From Betaproteobacteria bacterium (lineage in GTDB: Bacteria > Pseudomonadota > Gammaproteobacteria > Burkholderiales > Burkholderiaceae_C), in assembly GCA_947453725.1 (NCBI GenBank), contig CANGHH010000011.1:1-64000 (forward strand): a stretch of DNA of 64,000 nt. Direction: 5' to 3'. The notes under the pieces were generated by a model. It saw only the letters and a list, made by a program, of their open reading frames with translations. It did no database searches and had not been told where the DNA came from. This document shows, piece after piece, positions 36,333 through 60,334 of the stretch; within the stretch, counting starts at the first letter, position 1, and every line of letters begins with the position of its first letter. Position numbers and translations under genes: made by a program.

Positions 36333-39050
36333 TCAGCCGGGCTGAGGCTGCAGGTCGACCAGGCGCTTCAACGCCGGCCGGCAGGACCCGCACTGGGTGC
36401 CGCAATGCAATTCGGCCTGCAGCGCCGCCAGGCGGGCTGCGGGCGGTCCCGCGCAAGCCGCCAAGGTCTGCACGATGGCCCGCTCGCTGACGTCGAAACA
36501 ACTGCACACCTGGGGCGAGCGCAGCGTTGCCGGGCCGGGCGGTGTGGCGCCGGGTGCCAGCAGAAAACGGCCATGGGCCTGGACCGGCAGGGATTGCTGC
36601 AGCAGCGGCGCGATCCAGCCCTCGGCACGCGTGTCGCCGGCCAGCAGCATGGCTTCCAGATGCTGGTCGCCGCCCTTGCGCGACAGCCGCAGGCTGCGAC
36701 GCTGGCCGCGCTGCGGGTCGGCGTAGCTCAGCGTGTCAGCGCCCTGCAGCCCGAAGAGCGTGGCGATCTGCGCCTGCAACTCGGCCGGCGCGGGCTCGGC
36801 GGCCGCCGCGCGGAACAGCACGCCGCTGCGCTCGCGGCCGAAAGGCACACAACTGGCGTAGCCGAAGCCGTCGAACAGCGGTCGCAGGGCCGCTCGCAGC
36901 TGCAGTGCCTGCGCTTCATTGCACCACGCCAGTGCCACCAGGCGCCAGGGCAGATCGGCGCGTGCGATCTGCACGGCCGCGTGCTTCAACTCGGGTTGCC
37001 GGGACTGGGGGCAGACCGCTGGCGAGGTCAAGGTGTTGACGCCGCCAAGCAGCGTCTCGTCGCCCCAGTGCATGGCCACGAAGGCCTGTGTCGGCGCCAC
37101 GCTGTCGGTGCCGCGCACAGGCAGCACCAGCGCACCGCGGCGCGAGCGTACCGTGGCCAGGTCGCCGTCCGCCAGGCGCAGGCGCAGCACATCCTGCGGG
37201 TGCAGGTCCAGTGTCGGTTCGGGCGTGTGGCCAAACAAACGGCCCAGCGTGCCGGTGCGGCTCATGCCGTGCCACTGGTCGCGCAGGCGGCCGGTGTTCA
37301 GCGCGAAGGGGAAGCGCGCGTCGCGCGGCTCGGCCACGGCGCGGTAGGTCACCGCGGCAAAGCACGCTCGGCCGTTGGCGGTGGGGAAGGTGCCGTCGGC
37401 GTAGAGCCGCTCCTGGCCCTGGGTCGCGCCCTCGGGGAAGGGCCAGCACTGCGCGCCTGCGTCCAGCCGGTCCCAGCTCAGGCCGGTGATGTCGAGGTCG
37501 CGCCCGCGCGTGCTTTCGCGGTGCTCGTTCCAGATCGACTCGGCATCGGCGTACGGGAACAGCGTCGGCGCGCCGGGACGCAGGCGCTGTTCGACGCGCC
37601 GGGCGAAGTCGCAGACGATGGCCCAGTCGGCTCGCGCCTGGCCCGGCGCCGGCACCGCGGCCCGCACGCGGCTGATGCGGCGTTCGCTGTTGGTGACCGT
37701 GCCGTCCTTTTCGCCCCAACTGCTGGCCGGCAGCAGCAGGTGCGCGTGGCGCGCGGTCGCGGTCGAGGCAAAGGCCTCTTGCAACACGACGAATTCGGCG
37801 CGCTCCAGCGCGCGCTTCACCGTGACCTGGTCGGGCAGGCTTTGCGCGGGGTTGGTGCAGGCTATCCACAGCGCCTTGATCTCGCCGTCGGCGGCGGCCT
37901 GGAACATCTCGACGGCGGTCTTGCCGGGTCGCGCGGGCACGTCCGGCAGGCCCCACAGGCGGGCGACTTCGGCGCGGTCTTCGGCCTTGCCCAGGTCGCG
38001 GTGGGCCGACAGCAGATTGGCCATGCCGCCGACTTCGCGCCCGCCCATCGCGTTGGGCTGGCCGGTCAGCGAAAACGGCCCGGCGCCGGGCTTGCCGATC
38101 TGCCCGGTGGCCAGGTGCAGGTTGATCAGCGCGGCGTTCTTGGCCGTGCCGCTGCTGCTCTGGTTCAGACCCTGGCAGTACAGCGACAGCGTGGCTGCCG
38201 ACTCGCCCCACCAGCGCGCGGCCTGCACGATGGCTTCTTCCTTCAAGCCGGTGATGCGCGCCGTCACCGCCGGCGTGGAGTCGCGCACGATGGCCTTCAG
38301 CGCCTCGAAGCCTTCGGTGTGCGCGGCGATGTAGCGCGCGTCGATCTGGCCGTCCCACAGCAACAGGTGCAGCATGCCGTTGAACAGCGCCACGTCGGTG
38401 CCCGGCAGCAGCGGCAGGTGCAGGTCGGCCTGCTCGGCGGTCTCGGTGCGCCGCGGGTCGACGGCGATGACCTTCATCAAAGGGTTGGCCAGCCTGGCGT
38501 CCTCGATGCGCCGGTACAGCACCGGGTGGGCCCAGGCCACGTTGCTGCCGGTGATGAACAACAACTGCGCGTGCTTGACGTCGTCGTAGCAGGTCGGCGG
38601 CGCGTCGGCGCCCAGCGTCAGCTTGTAGCCGGCCACCGCGCTGCTCATGCACAGCCGCGAATTGGTGTCGACGTTGTTGGTGCCGAACAGGCCCTTGGCC
38701 AGCTTGTTGAAGACGTAATAGTCCTCGGTCAGCAATTGGCCCGAGATGTAGAAGCCCAGTGCATCGGGGCCGTGTTCGCGGGCGATCGCGGTGAAGCGAT
38801 CGGCGGCGGTGTCCAGGGCGCTTGCCCAGCTGACGTCCTGGCCGTGCAGTTGGGGCGTGCGCAGGCGCTGGTGCAGCGTGATCGGCGCGCTGGCCGTCAG
38901 GTGCAGGGTCTGGCCCTTGGTGCACAGACGGCCGAAGTTGGCCGGGTGCTCGGGGTCGCCGCGCACACCGGTGATCTGGCTGCCTTGGCTCTCGATGAGC
39001 ACCCCGCAGCCGACGCCGCAGTACGGGCAGGTGGACCGCGTCTCCTTCAC
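36333..39050 (-). CDS. nasA: Assimilatory nitrate reductase, catalytic subunit with C-terminal [2Fe-2S] domain
   Basis: Reduces nitrate to nitrite in the cytoplasm with a Mo-bis-MGD cofactor and a 4Fe-4S cluster. The 905-residue protein has the cluster ligands Cys8, Cys11, Cys15 and Cys43 (CPYCGVGC...LC), Mo ligand Cys134 in LCMSSAVAG, and NQSSSGTAKNAALINLHLATG. The end (about 830-900) is a BFD-like [2Fe-2S] domain with CSCFDVSE and HCGTQCGSCRPALKRL, which receives electrons. It overlaps nirD by four bases. No separate electron-transfer subunit is in the operon. Confidence 0.94.
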   Translation of the reverse strand: MKETRSTCPYCGVGCGVLIESQGSQITGVRGDPEHPANFGRLCTKGQTLHLTASAPITLHQRLRTPQLHGQDVSWASALDTAADRFTAIAREHGPDALGFYISGQLLTEDYYVFNKLAKGLFGTNNVDTNSRLCMSSAVAGYKLTLGADAPPTCYDDVKHAQLLFITGSNVAWAHPVLYRRIEDARLANPLMKVIAVDPRRTETAEQADLHLPLLPGTDVALFNGMLHLLLWDGQIDARYIAAHTEGFEALKAIVRDSTPAVTARITGLKEEAIVQAARWWGESAATLSLYCQGLNQSSSGTAKNAALINLHLATGQIGKPGAGPFSLTGQPNAMGGREVGGMANLLSAHRDLGKAEDRAEVARLWGLPDVPARPGKTAVEMFQAAADGEIKALWIACTNPAQSLPDQVTVKRALERAEFVVLQEAFASTATARHAHLLLPASSWGEKDGTVTNSERRISRVRAAVPAPGQARADWAIVCDFARRVEQRLRPGAPTLFPYADAESIWNEHRESTRGRDLDITGLSWDRLDAGAQCWPFPEGATQGQERLYADGTFPTANGRACFAAVTYRAVAEPRDARFPFALNTGRLRDQWHGMSRTGTLGRLFGHTPEPTLDLHPQDVLRLRLADGDLATVRSRRGALVLPVRGTDSVAPTQAFVAMHWGDETLLGGVNTLTSPAVCPQSRQPELKHAAVQIARADLPWRLVALAWCNEAQALQLRAALRPLFDGFGYASCVPFGRERSGVLFRAAAAEPAPAELQAQIATLFGLQGADTLSYADPQRGQRRSLRLSRKGGDQHLEAMLLAGDTRAEGWIAPLLQQSLPVQAHGRFLLAPGATPPGPATLRSPQVCSCFDVSERAIVQTLAACAGPPAARLAALQAELHCGTQCGSCRPALKRLVDLQPQPG

Positions 39051-39403
39051 GCTGCAGCCGGGTTGCCGTGCGCCGCGCGCGTGGCCAGTTCTTCGGCGTC
39101 CAGGAACACCTCGCCGGCGTCGACCAGGAGGCTGAAGCGCGCGGTGCAGCCTTCATCGGGTGCGCGGGCTTCGCCGGTCGCCAGGCCGATCGTCCAGTTG
39201 TGCAGCGGGCAGGCCACGCTGTCACCGAAGACGATGCCCTGGCTCAGCGGGCCGCCCTTGTGCGGGCAGCGGTCGAGCAGCGCGAAGACCCGGTCCTCGG
39301 CGTTGCGAAAGATGGCGACAGCGTGGCCGGTGGTCCGCGCCACACGGCGCGAGCCCAGCACGGGGATGTCGTCAACGCGGCAAATGCGGGTCCAGTTGGC
39401 CAT
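39047..39403 (-). CDS. nirD: Nitrite reductase small subunit NirD (Rieske-type)
   Basis: A 118-residue small subunit of NADH-nitrite reductase with a Rieske-like fold and the ligand pattern CPHKGGPLSQG and CPLHNW. It supports NirB in reducing nitrite to ammonium. ATG 39403 shares a base with the TAA of nirB; it overlaps nasA by four bases. Confidence 0.94.
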   Translation of the reverse strand: MANWTRICRVDDIPVLGSRRVARTTGHAVAIFRNAEDRVFALLDRCPHKGGPLSQGIVFGDSVACPLHNWTIGLATGEARAPDEGCTARFSLLVDAGEVFLDAEELATRAAHGNPAAA

Positions 39404-41859
39404 TACAGCGCTCCCATTTCTGCCACCGGGCTGAACTGCCGCGTGTCCACGCGGGCCTTGTCGAATTCGAACCACGGGTCGGGTTCGCCATCCAGGCTGA
39501 ATTGCAATTTGGCCCACAGCGCCTGACGGCCTTCGTGGTCTTCCAAAATCTTCTTCTTCACGTAATCCAGACCGACGCGGTTGACGTAATGCACCGTGCG
39601 TTCCAGGTACCAGCCTTCCTCGCGATAAAGCTGGCAGAAAGCACCGGTGTATTCCAGCACTTCTTCTGCCGTCTTCAGCTTGGTGAAGAAGTGCGCCACT
39701 TCGGTCTTGATGCCGCCGTTGCCGGCCACGTACATCTCCCAGCCGCTGTCCACGCCGATGATGCCGACGTCCTTGATGCCGGCCTCGGCGCAGTTGCGCG
39801 GGCAGCCGCTGACGGCGAACTTCACCTTGTGCGGCGCGTACATGCGCCACATCGCGCGCTCCAGGTCCTTGCCCATCTGCGTGCTGTCTTGCGTGCCGAA
39901 GCGGCACCACTCTGAACCGACGCAGGTCTTCACGGTGCGCAGCGCCTTGGCGTAGGCGTGGCCGCTGGGCATGCCGATGTCCTGCCAAACTGCCTGAAGG
40001 TCTTCCTTCTTGACCCCCAGCAGGTCGATGCGCTGGCCGCCGGTGACCTTCACGGTCGGAATCTTGAACTTGTCCACCGCGTCGGCAATGCGCCGCAATT
40101 CGCTGGACGTCGTCTCGCCGCCCCACATCCGCGGGATCACCGAGTAGCTGCCGTCCTTCTGGATGTTGGCGTGGCTGCGTTCGTTGATGTAGCGGCTTTG
40201 CGGGTCGTCCACCGCCTCTTTCGGCCAGCTGCTGATCAGGTAGTAATTGACCGCCGGGCGGCAGCTGCTGCAGCCGTTGGGCGTGCGCCAGCCCTGGTGG
40301 CGGTAGACGCTGTCGATCGTCAACAGATGCTCTTGGCGGATGGCCTGCCGCACGTCTTCGTGGCTGGCGTCGGTGCAGCCGCACATCGCCTTCTTGGTCG
40401 GTGCTTTCGAGTAGTCGCCGCCGGCGGTGAACATCAGCAGTTGTTCGACCAGTCCGGTGCACGATCCGCAACTGGCGCTGGCCTTGGTGTGCTTGCGCAC
40501 CTCGTCCAGCGTGAACAGGCCCTTGTCCTTGATGGCCTTGCAGATGGTGCCTTTGGTCACACCATTGCAGCCGCAGACTTCGTCGGTGTCCTTCAGCAGA
40601 GCTGCGCGGCTGTGGCCCTGGTGGCCGACGTCGCCGATGTTGCTTTCGCCGAACATCAGCTTGTCGCGGATGTCGTTGATGCTGCGGCCCTCGCGCAGCA
40701 ATTTGAAGTACCAGCTGCCGTCGACCGTGTCGCCGTACAGGCAGGCGCCGATCAGCTTGTCGCCGCGGATGACCAGCTTCTTGTAAACGCCCGCGTAGGG
40801 GTCGGACAGCACGATCTCTTCGGTGCCTTCGCCGCCGGTGAAGTCGCCGGCGCTGAAAAGGTCGATCCCCGTCACCTTGAGCTTGGTGCTGGTCAGGCTG
40901 CCGGTGTAGCGGCCGATGCCGAATTGCGCCAGGTGCGTCGCGCAGACCTTGGCCTGTTCGAACAGCGGCGCCACCAGGCCGTAGGCGATGCCGCGGTGCG
41001 CCGCGCATTCGCCCACCGCGTAGATGCGCGGGTCGGTGGTGGTCTGCAGGGTGTCGCTGACCACGATGCCGCGGTGGCAGTGGATGCCGGCCTTTTCGGC
41101 CAGCGCGGTGTTCGGGCGGATGCCGGCGGCCATCACCACCAGGTCGGCCGGGATCTCGGTGCCGTCCTTGAAGCGCACCGCCATCACCCGCCCGGCCTTG
41201 TCGGGGATCAGCGCTTCGGTTTGCGCGCCCATGCGGAACTTCAGACCACGCTGTTCCAGCGACTGCTGCAGCAGTTTGCCGGCAGTTTCATCGAGCTGGC
41301 GTTCCATCAGCCACGGCATCAGATGCACGACCGTGACCTGCATGCCGCGCAGCATCAGGCCGTTGGCCGCTTCCAGGCCCAGCAGGCCGCCGCCGATGAC
41401 GACAGCGTGCCGGAATTTCGTCGCGGTATCGATCATCGTCTGCGTGTCGGCGATGTCGCGGTAGGCGATGACGCCCTGCAGGTCCTTGCCGGGCACCGGC
41501 AGGATGAAGGGCGTGGAGCCGGTGGCGATCAGCAGGCGGTCGTAGTCGGCCCGGACTTCGCCGCCCTGGCCGTCGCTGGCGATGACCACGCGCTTCACGC
41601 GGTCGATGCCCGTGACGGTCTTGCCGAGGTGCAGGGTGATGCCCTGGTCGGCGTACCAGCCCAGCGGGTTCAGCACGATCTGCTCGATCGTTTGCTCGCC
41701 GGCCAGCACGGGGCTCAGCAGGATGCGGTTGTAGTTGGGGTGGGGCTCGGCGCCGAAGACGGTGATGTCGTAGAGATCGGGGGCGATCTTCAGCAGTTCT
41801 TCGAGGGCGCGGACACCGGCCATGCCGTTGCCGATCAGAACCAGACGTGATTTTTTCAT
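39403..41859 (-). CDS. nirB: NADH-dependent nitrite reductase large subunit
   Basis: Reduces nitrite to ammonium with FAD, [4Fe-4S] and siroheme. The 818-residue protein has an N-terminal FAD/NAD domain (LVLIGNGMAGVRAL, VVIGGGLLGLEAANGL), a BFD-like [2Fe-2S] region (CGCNGVTKGTICKAI, CGSCTGL), then the sulfite/nitrite-reductase half with siroheme-cluster ligands CVGSEWCRFG and CPRNCAEAGIKD. GGAGG lies eight bases before ATG. First gene of the row nirB-nirD-nasA-ybiB-cobA. Confidence 0.95.
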   Translation of the reverse strand: MKKSRLVLIGNGMAGVRALEELLKIAPDLYDITVFGAEPHPNYNRILLSPVLAGEQTIEQIVLNPLGWYADQGITLHLGKTVTGIDRVKRVVIASDGQGGEVRADYDRLLIATGSTPFILPVPGKDLQGVIAYRDIADTQTMIDTATKFRHAVVIGGGLLGLEAANGLMLRGMQVTVVHLMPWLMERQLDETAGKLLQQSLEQRGLKFRMGAQTEALIPDKAGRVMAVRFKDGTEIPADLVVMAAGIRPNTALAEKAGIHCHRGIVVSDTLQTTTDPRIYAVGECAAHRGIAYGLVAPLFEQAKVCATHLAQFGIGRYTGSLTSTKLKVTGIDLFSAGDFTGGEGTEEIVLSDPYAGVYKKLVIRGDKLIGACLYGDTVDGSWYFKLLREGRSINDIRDKLMFGESNIGDVGHQGHSRAALLKDTDEVCGCNGVTKGTICKAIKDKGLFTLDEVRKHTKASASCGSCTGLVEQLLMFTAGGDYSKAPTKKAMCGCTDASHEDVRQAIRQEHLLTIDSVYRHQGWRTPNGCSSCRPAVNYYLISSWPKEAVDDPQSRYINERSHANIQKDGSYSVIPRMWGGETTSSELRRIADAVDKFKIPTVKVTGGQRIDLLGVKKEDLQAVWQDIGMPSGHAYAKALRTVKTCVGSEWCRFGTQDSTQMGKDLERAMWRMYAPHKVKFAVSGCPRNCAEAGIKDVGIIGVDSGWEMYVAGNGGIKTEVAHFFTKLKTAEEVLEYTGAFCQLYREEGWYLERTVHYVNRVGLDYVKKKILEDHEGRQALWAKLQFSLDGEPDPWFEFDKARVDTRQFSPVAEMGAL

Positions 41860-42078
41860 GGCGGTACCTCCGTGAGGACGTGCAGTGATCCCGTCCGCCG
41901 GGACAGCCGGCGAAACGGAACAGGATCTGCGCACGTCGCTGTGCACGGGGCCCGGCTGAACACGCAGCCAACGCCCTGATGTGGCGCGCCATCGCGCCAC
42001 CGCGTGCAAGGAAGCATAAAATGTGCCCGTGTCTGGCGCCCATCGGCCCCGCAGCGTCGGGTCAACTTAGGGGCCAAA
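41860..42078 (-). promoter_or_regulatory. Structured nirB leader and divergent promoter region
   Basis: Between nirB (minus) and the PAS-GGDEF gene (plus). On the nirB strand three hairpins follow one another: GTGGCGCG-ATGG-CGCGCCAC (41981-42000), GGCTG-CGTGTT-CAGCC (about 41954-41969), and a longer imperfect one closing CGCCGG-CTGTC-CCGGCG (about 41893-41917). A TATGCT -10-like box lies near 42015. The third hairpin is not followed by a T-run, so it is not a clear terminator. It may be a regulated leader. Confidence 0.45.
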
Positions 42079-43215: not shown

Positions 43216-43224
43216 ATCGGGGGT

Positions 43225-43403
43225 GTCCGCCGTGGGGCGTGAACCCGGTGCCTGAACCAAGGGGGAGTTCAGGTGGGCGAGGTCAGCCTGGCTTCGGGTT
43301 CATCTGACGCGAGACGCTCACACCAACCAGGCGATGTTCCAAGCCCTTGGTCATAGACCATCGGCTCAAGGACATAAAAGGCTCATCGACCCACAGCGGA
43401 CGG
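43225..43403 (-). ncRNA. ssrS: 6S RNA
   Basis: About 179 bases directly downstream of zapA on the same strand, the conserved place for ssrS. The ends pair: GTCCGC-T-GTGGG with CCCAC-G-GCGGAC. Internal blocks match the Escherichia coli RNA by eye: CCTTGAGCCGATG, GGTTGGTGTGAGC, CACCTGAACTCCC and TTGGTTCAGGCACC. A TAGAAT box (43408-43413) sits just upstream of the 5' end. The RNA mimics an open promoter and binds sigma-70 holoenzyme. Ends are estimated. Confidence 0.88.
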
Positions 43404-56544: not shown

Positions 56545-57363
56545 TCAGGCGCTGGCCTTTTCCACATGGCCCTGGCGCGTGTACAGGAAGTCCAGGACCG
56601 CCTTGCGGCAGTGCACGTAGTCGGGGTTCTCGGCCAGTTCGACGCGGTCGCGCGGGCGCGGCAGGTTCACGCTCAGGATCTCGCCGATGGTGGCAGCCGG
56701 CCCGTTGGTCATCATCACCACGCGGTCGGACAGCAGCACGGCCTCGTCCACGTCGTGGGTCACCATCACCACCGTGCTGCGGGTGCGGGCCACGATCTTC
56801 AGCAGTTCGTCCTGCAGCCGGGCCCGGGTCAGCGCGTCCAGCGCGCCGAAGGGCTCGTCCATCAGCAGCACCTTGGGCTCCATGGCCAGCGCGCGGGCGA
56901 TGCCAACGCGCTGCTTCATGCCACCGCTGATCTCGTGCGGGCGCTTGCTCAGGGCGTGGCTCATGCCGACCAGGTCGAGCGCAGCGGCGGTGCGGGCTTC
57001 CAGTTGAGCCTTGCTGTCCTTTGCGCCGAAGACGCGCTCGACGGCCAGGTGCACGTTTTCGGCGCAGGTCAACCAGGGCAGCAGCGAGTGGTTCTGGAAG
57101 ACGACGCCGCGTTCGGGGCCGGGCGCGGCAATCTCGCGGCGGTCGCACAGCAGGATGCCGCGGGTCGGCAGCAGCAGGCCGGCGATCAGGTTCAGCAGCG
57201 TGCTCTTGCCGCAGCCCGAATGGCCGATCAAGGTGATGAATTCGCCCTGGGCCACGCTGAGGTTGATATCGCGCAGCGCATGAAAGCGGCCCTTCCGGGT
57301 CTCGAACACCATCTCGGCGCTCTCGACCTTGATGAAGTCGGCGGCGTTGTGGTCAATCGTCAT
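56545..57363 (-). CDS. nrtD: Nitrate ABC transporter ATPase NrtD
   Basis: ATPase of 272 residues of the nitrate/sulfonate/taurine class. Walker A GHSGCGKST, Q-loop FQNHSLLPWLT, signature ISGGMKQRVGIARAL, Walker B LLMDEPFGALD, and a His switch in MVTHDVDEAV. The sequence GPAATIGEILSVNLPRPRDR is typical of NrtD/CmpD. It overlaps nrtB by 11 bases. Confidence 0.92.
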   Translation of the reverse strand: MTIDHNAADFIKVESAEMVFETRKGRFHALRDINLSVAQGEFITLIGHSGCGKSTLLNLIAGLLLPTRGILLCDRREIAAPGPERGVVFQNHSLLPWLTCAENVHLAVERVFGAKDSKAQLEARTAAALDLVGMSHALSKRPHEISGGMKQRVGIARALAMEPKVLLMDEPFGALDALTRARLQDELLKIVARTRSTVVMVTHDVDEAVLLSDRVVMMTNGPAATIGEILSVNLPRPRDRVELAENPDYVHCRKAVLDFLYTRQGHVEKASA

Positions 57364-58138
57364 ACGAAAACCTTTTCGCGATGGTGACCAGGACCTGTTC
57401 GAGCAGCAGGCCGACGACGCCGATCACGAAGATGGCGATGATGATGTGCTTGACGTTGAGGTTGTTCCACTCGTCCCAGACCCAGAAGCCGATGCCGACG
57501 CCGCCGGTCAGCATCTCTGCCGCCACGATGACCAGCCATGCCGTGCCGACACTCAGGCGCACGCCGGTCAGCATGTAGGGCAGCACGGCGGGGAACAGGA
57601 TCCTGGTGATGACCTTCCATTCGCTGAGGTTGAGCACGCGGGCCACGTTCAGGTAGTCCTGCGGCACGCGCTGCACACCGACTGCGGTGTTGATGATCAT
57701 CGGCCAGATGCTGCAGATGAAGATGGTCCAGATGGCCGCCGGGTTGGCGGCCTTGAAGACCAGCAGTCCGATCGGCAGCCAGGCCAGCGGCGACACCGGG
57801 CGCAGCAGGCTGACCAGCGGATTGACCATGCGGTTGATGAAGCTGAAGCGGCCCAGGATGAAACCCATCGGGATGCCGACCAGCGCCGCCAGGCCGAAGC
57901 CCACGGCCACCCGTTCCAGCGAGAACAGGATGTTCCAGCCTATTCCCTGGTCATTCGGTCCCTTGCGGTAGAAGGGGTCGGCGAAGAGCTTGACGGCGGC
58001 TTCAAAGGTCGCCGCGGGTGTCGGGAAGGTGCTGCTGTTCATCGTCAGCAGGCCCCACACCGCCACCAGCAGGGCGAGGCCGAAGAGTGGCGGCAGCACC
58101 GTCAGGCTGACCTCGCGCCAGTCGATGCGCGTGCGCAT
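57353..58138 (-). CDS. nrtB: Nitrate ABC transporter permease NrtB
   Basis: Inner-membrane permease of 261 residues with about six hydrophobic segments and an EAA-type loop AEMLTGGVGIGFWVWDEWN. PFYRKGPNDQGIGWNI and LLRPVSPLAWLPIGLLVFK are the NrtB/CmpB pattern. ATG 58138 was chosen, 11 bases after the nrtA stop; an upstream GTG (58147) is also in frame. Confidence 0.92.
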   Translation of the reverse strand: MRTRIDWREVSLTVLPPLFGLALLVAVWGLLTMNSSTFPTPAATFEAAVKLFADPFYRKGPNDQGIGWNILFSLERVAVGFGLAALVGIPMGFILGRFSFINRMVNPLVSLLRPVSPLAWLPIGLLVFKAANPAAIWTIFICSIWPMIINTAVGVQRVPQDYLNVARVLNLSEWKVITRILFPAVLPYMLTGVRLSVGTAWLVIVAAEMLTGGVGIGFWVWDEWNNLNVKHIIIAIFVIGVVGLLLEQVLVTIAKRFSYDD

Positions 58139-58149
58139 GGTGCCCACGC

Positions 58150-59394
58150 TCAAGCCGCCGCAGCGGCCTTGATCTTGAAGCCGTCGGCGTACTTGGCCGG
58201 CGACTGACCGTCCCAGACCACGCCGTCGATGAGCTTGCTGCTGCGCATCTCGCTCTTCGGGACATTCACCTTCAGCTGGCCCGCAGCTTCCTTGTACAGC
58301 GCGATCTGGTTGATCTGCTTGGCCACGCCCAGGTAGTCGGGGTGTTCCTTCAGCAAGCCCCAGCGCTTGTGCTGGGTCAGGAACCACATGCCATCCGACA
58401 GGTAGGGGAAGGTCACCGCGCCGTCGTTGAAGAACTTCATGTAGTTGGGGTCGTCCCAGGTCTTGCCCATGCCGTTCTGGTAACGGCCCAGGATGCGCTG
58501 GTTGATGGCGTCGACGCTGGTGTTGACGTAGCTCTTGTCGGCGATGGTCTCGGCCATCTTGTTCTTGTTCTGCAGGCCGGCGTCGATCCAGCGGCCGGCT
58601 TCCATCACCGCCATCATCACGGCGCGCGCGGTGTTGGGGTACTTCTTGACGAAGTCGCCGGTGGTGCCCAGCACCTTCTCGGGGTGGTCTTTCCAGATGT
58701 CCTGCGTGGTGGCTGCCGTGACGCCGATGCCGTCGATGATGGCGCGGTGGTTCCAGGGCTCGCCGACGCAGTAGCCGTCCATGTTGCCGACGCGCATGTT
58801 CGCCACCATCTGCGGCGGCGGCACGGTGATGACTTTGGCGTCCTTGATCGGGTTGATGCCGACCGAGGCCATCCAGTAATAGAGCCACATCGCGTGCGTG
58901 CCGGTCGGGAAGGTCTGCGCGAAGGTGTACTCGCGCTTGTCGGCGGCCATCACCTTGGCCAGGCCGGCGCCGTCCACGGCGCCCTTGTCCGCCAGCTTCT
59001 TGCTCAGCGTGATGGCCTGGCCGTTGTTGTTCAGCGTCATCAGCACGGCCATGTCTTTTTTCGGCCCGCCGACGCCCAGGTGCACGCCGTAGACCAGGCC
59101 ATAGAGCACATGCGCCATGTCGAGTTCGCCGTTGACGAGCTTGTCGCGCACCCCGGCCCAGCTGGCCTCCTTGGTCGGGATGATCTTGACGCCGTACTTC
59201 TTGTCGAAACCCAGCACGCTGGCCATCACCACGCTGGCGCAGTCGGTCAGCGGGATGAAGCCGATGCGGACTTCCTCCTTCTCGGGCTTGTCGCTGCCGG
59301 CCGCGTAGACGGCGGCCTGCAGGCCGGGGATGAGGCCGGCGGCGCCGGTGGCTGCCGTCGCGGCAGCAGCCTTCACGAGGGTGCGACGGGCCAT
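58150..59394 (-). CDS. nrtA: Nitrate-binding protein NrtA, Tat-exported
   Basis: Periplasmic substrate-binding protein of 414 residues of the CmpA/NrtA family. Tat-type start ARRTLVKAAAATAATGAAG (RR followed by hydrophobic region). Family stretches: GFIPLTDCASVVMASVLGFD, LSKKLADKG, YCVGEPWNHRAIIDGIG. The signal peptide argues for transport rather than the cytoplasmic sensor NasS, to which it is otherwise similar. AGGAC lies before ATG 59394; an upstream in-frame ATG at 59421 has no such site. Confidence 0.9.
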   Translation of the reverse strand: MARRTLVKAAAATAATGAAGLIPGLQAAVYAAGSDKPEKEEVRIGFIPLTDCASVVMASVLGFDKKYGVKIIPTKEASWAGVRDKLVNGELDMAHVLYGLVYGVHLGVGGPKKDMAVLMTLNNNGQAITLSKKLADKGAVDGAGLAKVMAADKREYTFAQTFPTGTHAMWLYYWMASVGINPIKDAKVITVPPPQMVANMRVGNMDGYCVGEPWNHRAIIDGIGVTAATTQDIWKDHPEKVLGTTGDFVKKYPNTARAVMMAVMEAGRWIDAGLQNKNKMAETIADKSYVNTSVDAINQRILGRYQNGMGKTWDDPNYMKFFNDGAVTFPYLSDGMWFLTQHKRWGLLKEHPDYLGVAKQINQIALYKEAAGQLKVNVPKSEMRSSKLIDGVVWDGQSPAKYADGFKIKAAAAA

Positions 59395-59580
59395 GTCTGT
59401 GCGTCCTGGGGTGGTGGTCATGGGCTTTGCTGGTTGAGGGCCGATAAAGCGAAAGGGCGTCCACACGTCAGCGTGCCGCGGTTCGGCACGCATCAGTGAG
59501 GACGCCCTTGTCCCGTCGGACCTGCACACACATGGCACCAGCCCGACGCTGTCGAGAAATCGGCTTTGATCTCTCTCAGG
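59395..59580 (-). promoter_or_regulatory. ANTAR-type antitermination leader of nrtABD
   Basis: Predicted RNA leader of about 186 bases read on the minus strand. P1 (59554-59575): GAGAGATC-AAAGCC-GATTTCTC, eight pairs (one G-U). P2 (59499-59514): GGGAC-AAGGGC-GTCCT, five pairs (one G-U). Both six-base loops have A1 and G4, the ANTAR-protein recognition signature. P2's loop and 3' arm (AAGGGCGTCC, 59500-59509) also form the 5' arm of a terminator whose 3' arm is GGACGCCCTT (59453-59462), with inner GCGTGCCG/CGGCACGC pairing, followed by TTTCGCTTT. Holding P2 would block the terminator. A GTCGG/CCGAC helix can bring P1 and P2 together. This fills the 307-base gap between the regulator gene and nrtA. 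Confidence 0.8.
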
Positions 59581-59590
59581 TCAGAGACCT

Positions 59591-59607
59591 TGCAAACCGC
59601 GTGCCAG
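59591..59607 (-). promoter_or_regulatory. Sigma-54 promoter of nrtABD
   Basis: Minus-strand CTGGCACG-CGGT-TTGCA matches the -24/-12 consensus (TGGCACG-N4-TTGCW) exactly. A start at about 59580 gives the leader described. Sigma-54 use implies control by nitrogen status through an NtrC-type activator; I did not find a clear activator site upstream, within the end of the ANTAR gene. Confidence 0.85.
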
Positions 59608-59701
59608 CGCAGGGGCCGCCTTTTCGGGTCCGGACCGGGTGTTGGTCCAGGGTTTGCACCAAGCCGCAGCACGCAACGCGCAGCGCTGGTGCGCTGCAGC
59701 G

Positions 59702-60334
59702 CTACATCAGCAGTTCGGCGGCGTCGACGATGCGCTGGGCGATGTCGGCCATCTTCAAGCCCTTGTCCATCGCCGCCTTGCGGATGCGCGCGTAGGCCTC
59801 GGGCTCGGCGATCTGGTGGCGCTGCATCAGCAGGCCCTTGGCGCGGTCGACCACCTTGCGGTCGGACAACTGCGTGCGCGCCTCGGCCAGCTCGCGTCGC
59901 AGCGATTCCTCGTGTTCGAAGCGCGCCAGCGCCACCTCCAGCACCGGCTTGACCCGTTCCGGTGCCAGACCCGCGACGACGTAGGCCGTCACCCCCGACG
60001 CGATGGCGGCGCGCACATGGCTGGTGTCGCTGTCCTCGGTGAACATCACGATCGGGCGGCGCGCGTCGCGCGTCGCCATCACCACGTGCTCCAGTGTGTC
60101 GCGGGCCTGGCTTTCGGCGTCGACGATGATCATGTCGGGCTGGATCTGCGCCAGCCGCTCGGGCAGGAAGGGGTCCACCGGCAACACCGCCACGATGTTG
60201 TAGCCGGCTTCCAGCAGGCCGATGCGCAGGCTGCGCGAACGCTCCATTTCGAGCGCCGTCGCCTCGTCGTCGGGCTCGCCGCCGAGTGGCTCGGGGGCCA
60301 CGATGACGATGCGGGTGGTTTCGGGAAGGGGCAT
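59702..60334 (-). CDS. ANTAR-domain response regulator (NasT-like)
   Basis: RNA-binding regulator of 210 residues. An N-terminal receiver-like domain (about 8-130) has the acceptor-region Asp in MIIVDAESQ and acidic residues near the start. The C-terminal ANTAR domain (about 148-205) has [42 protein letters not shown], here read as one conserved block (positions about 158-200) with the typical RAKGLLM and AY-R-IRK features. It lies directly upstream of the leader carrying ANTAR hairpins, so it is the likely antiterminator for nitrate uptake. No NasS-type cytoplasmic nitrate sensor is adjacent. Confidence 0.9.

Follow-up and report, generated by a model that had tools for sequence, protein, structure and literature searches.

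The nrtABD genes of the betaproteobacterium analysed here are likely controlled by a sigma-54-driven attenuation leader of the ANTAR type that carries three hairpins, the middle one probably of ANTAR descent. The leader lies in a window of 64,000 nt, the whole stretch of DNA that we analysed (Betaproteobacteria bacterium GCA_947453725.1, contig CANGHH010000011.1, positions 1 to 64,000). The minus-strand order runs from a divergent tsaD through the ANTAR gene (60334-59702) and a 280-nt gap to nrtA, nrtB and nrtD. The gap contains, in this order, an NtrC-like site, a sigma-54 element, a first hairpin, a middle helix, the hairpin P2 and a terminator. An earlier note on this DNA had placed an antitermination leader of the ANTAR type downstream of a sigma-54 promoter, and this holds: the leader is conserved with compensatory changes, and ANTAR homologues adjoin like leaders. 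Taken as a whole, that first interpretation is partly supported. The promoter, the helices, the terminator overlap and the neighbouring ANTAR gene are established by sequence and covariation. The switch itself is of a known kind, and what is new is the three-hairpin form with its altered middle tip.

The ANTAR gene, directly upstream of the leader as had been noted (59702..60334, minus strand), encodes a NasT-like antitermination protein of 210 residues with a receiver-like N-terminal part and an ANTAR domain (Pfam PF03861, E 8.5e-21). The receiver part was identified through weak NCBIfam matches and through alignment to 1s8n and 6wsh. No sensor domain was recognised, Pfam giving the ANTAR domain only, so that the protein has the domain composition of NasT. 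Its nearest solved relatives are Rv1626 (1s8n), EutV (6wsh), NasR (4akk) and AmiR (1qo0). Residues R159, K160 and R164 align, with matched spacing, with R142, K143 and K147 of EutV, which are named as RNA contacts in PMC8934654. On the other side of the leader, nrtA (58150..59421, minus strand) encodes a nitrate-binding protein (Pfam NMT1_2, 1.7e-102; NrtA 2g29 in the PDB, E 7e-80) in whose translation we read the RR signal ARRTLVK. It is followed by nrtB, a permease (57353..58138, minus strand; TIGR01183, above cut-off), and nrtD, an ATPase (56545..57363, minus strand; TIGR01184, above cut-off). These Pfam and TIGR families agree with the earlier placing of the leader before nrtABD. Within the genus (genomes G583, G656 and G486), two of three congeners have only a 46% ANTAR homologue and one has none at E ≤1e-30; the ANTAR locus may therefore be patchily distributed among, or exchanged between, members of the genus. 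In the window's own genome, another ANTAR match, a weak one, lies near 60555 on contig C8 (L002); it falls in a protein that resembles response regulators and is preceded by an ORF resembling a histidine kinase, the neighbours being judged by eye.

Sigma-54 promoters were called by the -24/-12 consensus. The exact match described in the earlier note, TGGCACGCGGTTTGCA, is present at 59606-59591 on the minus strand, and its core is conserved in both leader alignments presented below (9 and 50 leaders). By the rule of thumb for sigma-54, the transcript is predicted to start near 59580, which puts the start 5 nt upstream of the first hairpin (59575-59554). Over 144 leaders, the position of this hairpin's first base relative to the predicted start ranges from -2 to +15, with a median of +3, and the transcript should therefore include it; a start that excludes it, which the earlier note had considered, is at odds with this prediction. 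The consensus of NtrC sites is TGCACC-N5-GGTGCA. TGCTGC-N5-GGTGCA, at 59655..59671 on the minus strand, differs from it by two mismatches, so that, judged by sequence, an exact sigma-54 element is combined with an NtrC-like site. Sites of this kind (at most 2 mismatches, within 160 nt upstream of the sigma-54 element) occur in 50 of 177 leaders, the window's included, versus 2.7 expected. The sigma-54 element and the enrichment of NtrC-like sites therefore point to nitrogen limitation, with NtrC as the putative regulator of the operon.

The first hairpin (P1 in the earlier note, P0 here) reads gagagatc-AAAGCC-gatttctc (59554..59575, minus strand) and P2, in its antiterminator form, ggac-AAGGGC-gtcc (59500..59513, minus strand). 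The hexaloops AAAGCC and AAGGGC are read directly from the sequence and both have A at position 1 and G at position 4 (A1/G4), as previously stated; the two stem-loops are those expected of an ANTAR target. Both loops are closed by a C-G pair that is invariant in 9 close leaders. In these leaders all cells of the first hairpin are paired (100%) and 4 of its 8 pairs show two-sided change, and the four pairs of P2 are all invariant, hence without covariation; over 50 leaders P2 is 99% paired. The loop and 3' arm of P2 also belong to an intrinsic terminator, AAGGGCGTCC...GGACGCCCTT at 59509-59453 with the tail TTTCGCTTT to 59446 (59446..59509, minus strand). This overlap, already described in the earlier note, is found consistently in sequence, minimum-energy fold and alignment. 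The terminator is 97% paired in the 9 leaders, mostly by invariance, with two-sided change in just 3 pairs. Its U-tract is interrupted, and termination may therefore be leaky.

In order to assess conservation, we searched for homologues of the ANTAR protein and found them in 141 of 399 genomes order-wide (E ≤1e-20) and in 140 of 299 family-wide (E ≤1e-30). A GTDB contig scan gave 174 relatives, of which the best 80 were retained; these are named Burkholderiales or betaproteobacteria, except one named only Pseudomonadota. Altogether 189 of 258 ANTAR-bearing loci could be parsed into a sigma-54 element, P2 and an overlapping terminator, 177 of the 189 being distinct, and some of the 69 unparsed ones have nasS directly following (an earlier, stricter parse, with 100 loci parsed and 95 not, was superseded). 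In the 9 close leaders, the 26 pairs of the three helices are 95% paired and 13 show two-sided change, a number attained by none of 500 shuffles; when partners were slid by 1 to 3 columns, just 2 to 8 such pairs were left. A diverse alignment of 50 leaders, hand-picked from 75 thinned ones and biased toward three clear hairpins, gave a covariation score of 0.495 versus 0.07-0.16 for slid partners, and 189 cells changed on both sides versus 35-81; counted simply as pairs with two-sided change, the 12 found lie within the 8-13 of the slid controls. A1 is found in 49, 43 and 36 of the 50 first, middle and P2 loops, respectively, and G4 in 48, 49 and 50. The C-G pair below the loop is kept in 48, 42 and 50 rows.

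The other 14 P2 loops of this alignment start with G. Such loops (GACGGC, GAAGGC, GATGGC) are present in 34 of the 177 leaders (L011, L048-L054, L056-L062 and others) and bear on the strictness of A1. A rule requiring at least two A1/G4 loops out of three was dropped: 11 of the 177 leaders have one upstream A1/G4 loop together with a G-starting P2, and 4 lack any such loop upstream. To look for triple arrays beyond the order, we used a covariance model built from the 50 leaders, which matched 39 of 274 genomes, including that of the window. The non-own matches number 46 and include 29 loci from other orders, of which 22 were parsed, 4 with three loops, 11 with two and 7 with one; P2 is probably misassigned in some of the last group. 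At one locus (L074:3831-5290), a three-hairpin leader precedes an ORF that by eye resembles an MFS nitrate transporter, not nrtA.

Could the resemblance to an ANTAR target be fortuitous, the hairpins being ordinary GC-rich folding near a terminator? A1/G4 hexaloops are short motifs and the region is GC-rich, yet this explanation is extremely improbable, and the controls largely exclude it. The full leader folds at -74.1 kcal/mol (z -4.9), a value equalled by 0 of 200 shuffles; the terminator, the first hairpin and the middle helix are all formed in this fold. The covariation is described above. When the two strands of the window were scanned strictly for terminators overlapped by an A1/G4 hexaloop hairpin, 2 raw hits were returned, and this leader alone combined the overlap with a sigma-54 match and another hexaloop upstream. 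The covariance model, which is partly circular as it includes the window's leader, scores that leader at 63.6 bits; among the 150 of 4012 first-look candidates scored in the genome, no other ANTAR target exceeded 14.7 bits, the score of the next site. Anywhere else in the window, the region before nirB included, neither the strict scan nor the covariance model found another ANTAR leader. We consider the observed leader to be confirmed as real.

The earlier note had described the stretch between the first hairpin and P2 as a 39-base linker with its own helix. The helix is indeed there and covaries, and what had been taken for a plain linker is instead a third hairpin (59514..59548, minus strand) with the tip CATGTGT at 59534-59528. 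In the 9 leaders, 9 of its 14 pairs show two-sided change and 91% of the cells are paired, six of the pairs failing in 1 to 3 of the 9 rows. The tips of the eight relatives (ATCGTTT, AAGGTTT, AAGGACT, ATCGTCT, AGCGCTT, AGGGTTT, AGCGTTT and ACTGTCT) follow the pattern ANNGNNU: with the window counted, G4 and U7 are present in 9 of 9 and A1 in 8, the window lacking it. The tip is a loop of 7 bases, or of 5 if A1 and U7 pair, which is possible in 8 of 9 and occurs in several minimum-energy folds. A1 and U7 may accordingly be kept for pairing and not for protein, which leaves the conserved G4 unexplained.

To place this tip, we counted hexaloops in long leaders (span ≥78 and sigma-54 score ≥9; 141 of 177), 138 of which have a hexaloop upstream of P2. 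A third A1/G4 hexaloop was found in 74 of these 138, versus 3.8 expected from dinucleotide shuffles, and in 40 of 82 versus 2.2 expected once near-copies were thinned. ANNGNNU tips alone account for 16 of 138 versus 0.7 expected; their place differs between groups, leaders of the window's clade having them in the middle hairpin and Herbaspirillum leaders in the first. No third A1/G4 hexaloop was seen in 64 of the 138 long leaders, or in 48 if ANNGNNU tips are counted. Short leaders (span <78; 35 of 177) have exactly one hexaloop upstream of P2 in 34 of 35 cases. The middle hairpin probably derives from an ANTAR-type stem-loop whose tip is now altered.

Alternatively, this could be a canonical dual-hairpin ANTAR leader in which the middle helix is a spacer that binds no protein and serves to bring the first hairpin near P2. 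In favour of this, the middle helix lies immediately next to P2, its tip is no plain hexaloop in the window's clade, the window's own tip is without A1, and nearly all short leaders make do with a single hexaloop before P2. A spacer, however, would not obviously be expected to retain G4 in all 9 tips while the neighbouring bases vary, and in many relatives the middle hairpin is an A1/G4 hexaloop. The loop positions thus disfavour a plain spacer, which we hold to be possible but somewhat unlikely.

Removal of the 3' half of the terminator from the calculation gave a best fold that keeps the first hairpin and has neither P2 nor the middle hairpin (z -1.4; 19 of 200 shuffles as good). The 5' arm of P2 there pairs with upstream RNA. 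P2 would therefore need protein or kinetic help. The same pairing of the P2 region would suit a third hairpin that mainly insulates, preventing erroneous pairing of P2 or the terminator arm with the first hairpin or with RNA close to the promoter. This role appears quite improbable: the middle hairpin is itself absent from the truncated fold, and the A1/G4 loop positions of the relatives would be left unexplained. The absence of the middle hairpin from that fold, together with the A1-U7 match that counts as a pair in 8 of 9 leaders, also makes the explanation by three ANTAR hairpins less sure.

Under this three-hairpin explanation, we infer the following sequence of RNA binding, termination and hand-off. 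By default the leader RNA would form the terminator, and transcription would end before nrtA. The NasT-like protein made from the adjoining gene would be captured by the first hairpin or hairpins of the nascent RNA and would then hold P2, excluding the terminator, so that RNA polymerase reads on. The third loop would be a second recruitment or relay site. The middle hairpin may offer the protein an additional place of recruitment, perhaps a weakened one, and at the same time fix how far the first hairpin lies from P2; in the window, where A1 is gone, it may be mostly a structured spacer joined end to end with P2.

This arrangement can be compared with known ANTAR systems. The ANTAR target RNA described by Ramesh 2012 (PMC3369931) shares with the window the A1/G4 hexaloop stem-loops, a P2 that overlaps an intrinsic terminator and an ANTAR gene nearby. 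The EutV, NasR and AmiR leaders described there have two hairpins and a short linker, a variable linker being allowed, and ANTAR target hits in Burkholderia are mentioned; the window in contrast has three hairpins, the first lying 39 nt from P2 and the middle one having no plain hexaloop. Two stem-loops are also the form spoken of in the study of the EutV structure (PMC8934654), in work on NasR (PMC7496416), whose SELEX experiments likewise found the C-G pair under the loops, and in an actinobacterial survey in which linkers of 2 to 25 nt were retained as a matter of curation and not by definition (PMC8164766). With P2 counted as 5 bp, the 39 nt between the first hairpin and P2 fall outside that range, and we therefore file the window's leader as a variant; if the middle hairpin is counted, the linkers are 5 nt and 0 nt. 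For EutV, induction of lacZ fusions was reduced by a linker of 14 nt, and antitermination in vitro was lost when 20 nt were added (PMC3369931, PMC8934654). The long distance from the first hairpin to P2 is therefore a difficulty, unless the middle hairpin compensates for it. The structure of EutV shows a dimer bound to a single loop at a time, from which its authors propose a recruitment hairpin followed by hand-off (PMC8934654). More than two ANTAR loops in one RNA have already been noticed in EutX of E. faecalis, which has an additional single G4 hexaloop beside the dual motif (PMC8934654); EutX differs in being a sequestering small RNA of the ethanolamine system and not the leader of a nitrate operon. 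In the Paracoccus nasA leader, mutating the second named hairpin is described as having little effect (PMC5424462).

The second part of the gating claimed in the earlier note is the response to nitrate. Its first step, nitrogen limitation, is supported by the NtrC-like sites; the nitrate step via the ANTAR protein is hypothetical, as Pfam sees no domain beside ANTAR and no close NasS was found. Indeed, in this genome, which is 99.6% complete, a single NasS/NrtA-type protein was retrieved at E ≤1e-60, the RR-bearing nrtA product, and no close cytoplasmic NasS partner. The genome holds seven NMT1_2 matches, two strong (the nrtA product and a protein of contig C9 that has RR motifs and lies beside transporter genes) and five weaker, among which a diverged NasS is possible. 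The NasS-NasT systems of Paracoccus (PMC3795266, PMC5424462) and Bradyrhizobium (PMC6759348) similarly combine a NasT-like receiver/ANTAR protein with the hairpin leader of a nitrate gene; they differ from the window, where no close NasS was found and the operon under the leader's control encodes a nitrate ABC transporter with a binding protein of the NasS clade.

Without NasS, the ANTAR protein could be a constitutive antiterminator and not a nitrate switch, NtrC and sigma-54 being the sole control of the operon. The lack of a close NasS would fit, as would the constitutive expression reported upon nasS loss in Paracoccus (PMC3795266). A permanently read-through leader should decay, however, yet the hairpins and the terminator are kept across many families of the order, and the genome may encode a diverged NasS. 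We rate constitutive antitermination as unlikely.

We surveyed NasS/NrtA proteins in 40 genomes with the ANTAR-nrtA layout, using Massilia NasS as query (E ≤1e-60). Each of the 40 has exactly one match with more than 50% identity, namely the nrtA product encoded next after the ANTAR gene; 2 of them have a further match at 35-36%, and two ANTAR-nasS genomes of the survey have one match each. An RR motif of the Tat type is present in 158 of 168 NrtA N-termini, as judged with a loose pattern on frames extended upstream of the match. Its consensus, S/T-R-R-x-hydrophobic-L/I-K/Q, speaks for real signals, and some of the 10 N-termini that lack it look like cytoplasmic NasS. In a tree of 37 proteins, in which some rows are fragmentary or overlong and support is weak at 10 of the 34 inner forks, leader-controlled NrtA and NasS form a single clade (100/97) that excludes the C9 protein and the second NrtA encoded at locus L047. 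Proteins were labelled NasS according to their position behind an ANTAR gene, and this label needs at least two changes on the tree. At that locus (L047:3885-6566, a Rubrivivax MAG), an ANTAR gene and leader are followed by a NasS-like protein without RR motif and then by an NrtA-like protein with one.

The shared clade, the Tat-type motifs and the lack of a close NasS lead to the hypothesis that NrtA itself doubles as the sensor. A Tat-type signal would allow the protein to fold in the cytoplasm, bind nitrate there and hold or release NasT as NasS does, before export to the periplasm. The wider proposal, that Burkholderiales nrt operons use a three-loop ANTAR array read by NasT, perhaps with one dimer per loop, and the transporter's own NrtA as sensor, is in our view doubtful. 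In Paracoccus, released NasT has been estimated at about six monomers (PMC3795266). If the proposal were true, transport and sensing would reside in one protein, export would be part of the switch, and cytoplasmic NasS would be the same protein minus its signal. The combination of NasT, a Tat-type NrtA and no close NasS makes it testable whether a binding protein senses, in the cytoplasm, for its own operon.

The Rfam families narK RNA (RF03032) and Pseudomonas P11 (RF00625) resemble the window's leader in having a sigma-54-like element and A1/G4 loops in their consensus. The window scores 22 bits against narK RNA (gathering 43.2) and 17.1 bits against P11 (gathering 70), below both cut-offs. 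Among related loci, 14 of 20 have a narK (12) or P11 (6) match at E ≤0.05, the best reaching 40.3 bits for narK. As read from their consensus lines, both families may be ANTAR leaders and could be re-annotated. Rfam hits to the NiCo riboswitch, ASdes, HCV and MH_s15 were below gathering and taken as chance. Three-hairpin ANTAR leaders appeared in none of the literature titles and abstract openings searched, which covered few subscription papers and are weak evidence of absence. Earlier studies reportedly dealt with P. aeruginosa nirBD and A. vinelandii nasA.

The two-hairpin ANTAR model is based largely on EutV and NasR, and the use of two loops by one ANTAR dimer is still described as debated (PMC8934654). 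A natural family with two or three loops and with varied tip size and first base offers a ready means of testing recruitment and hand-off. Three-hairpin leaders could escape searches that are set for two hairpins and short linkers.

Elsewhere in the window, genes for assimilatory nitrite and nitrate reductases (nirB, molybdopterin reductase) lie at 36333-42009 on the minus strand, where we recognised no ANTAR leader. Upstream of nirB, inspection by eye revealed a sigma-54-like element, GGGCACATTTTATGCT at 42028-42013, and a hairpin with the loop AGCGAC. A 6S RNA is located at 43223-43402 on the minus strand (50 bits versus a gathering of 46.4 in Rfam).
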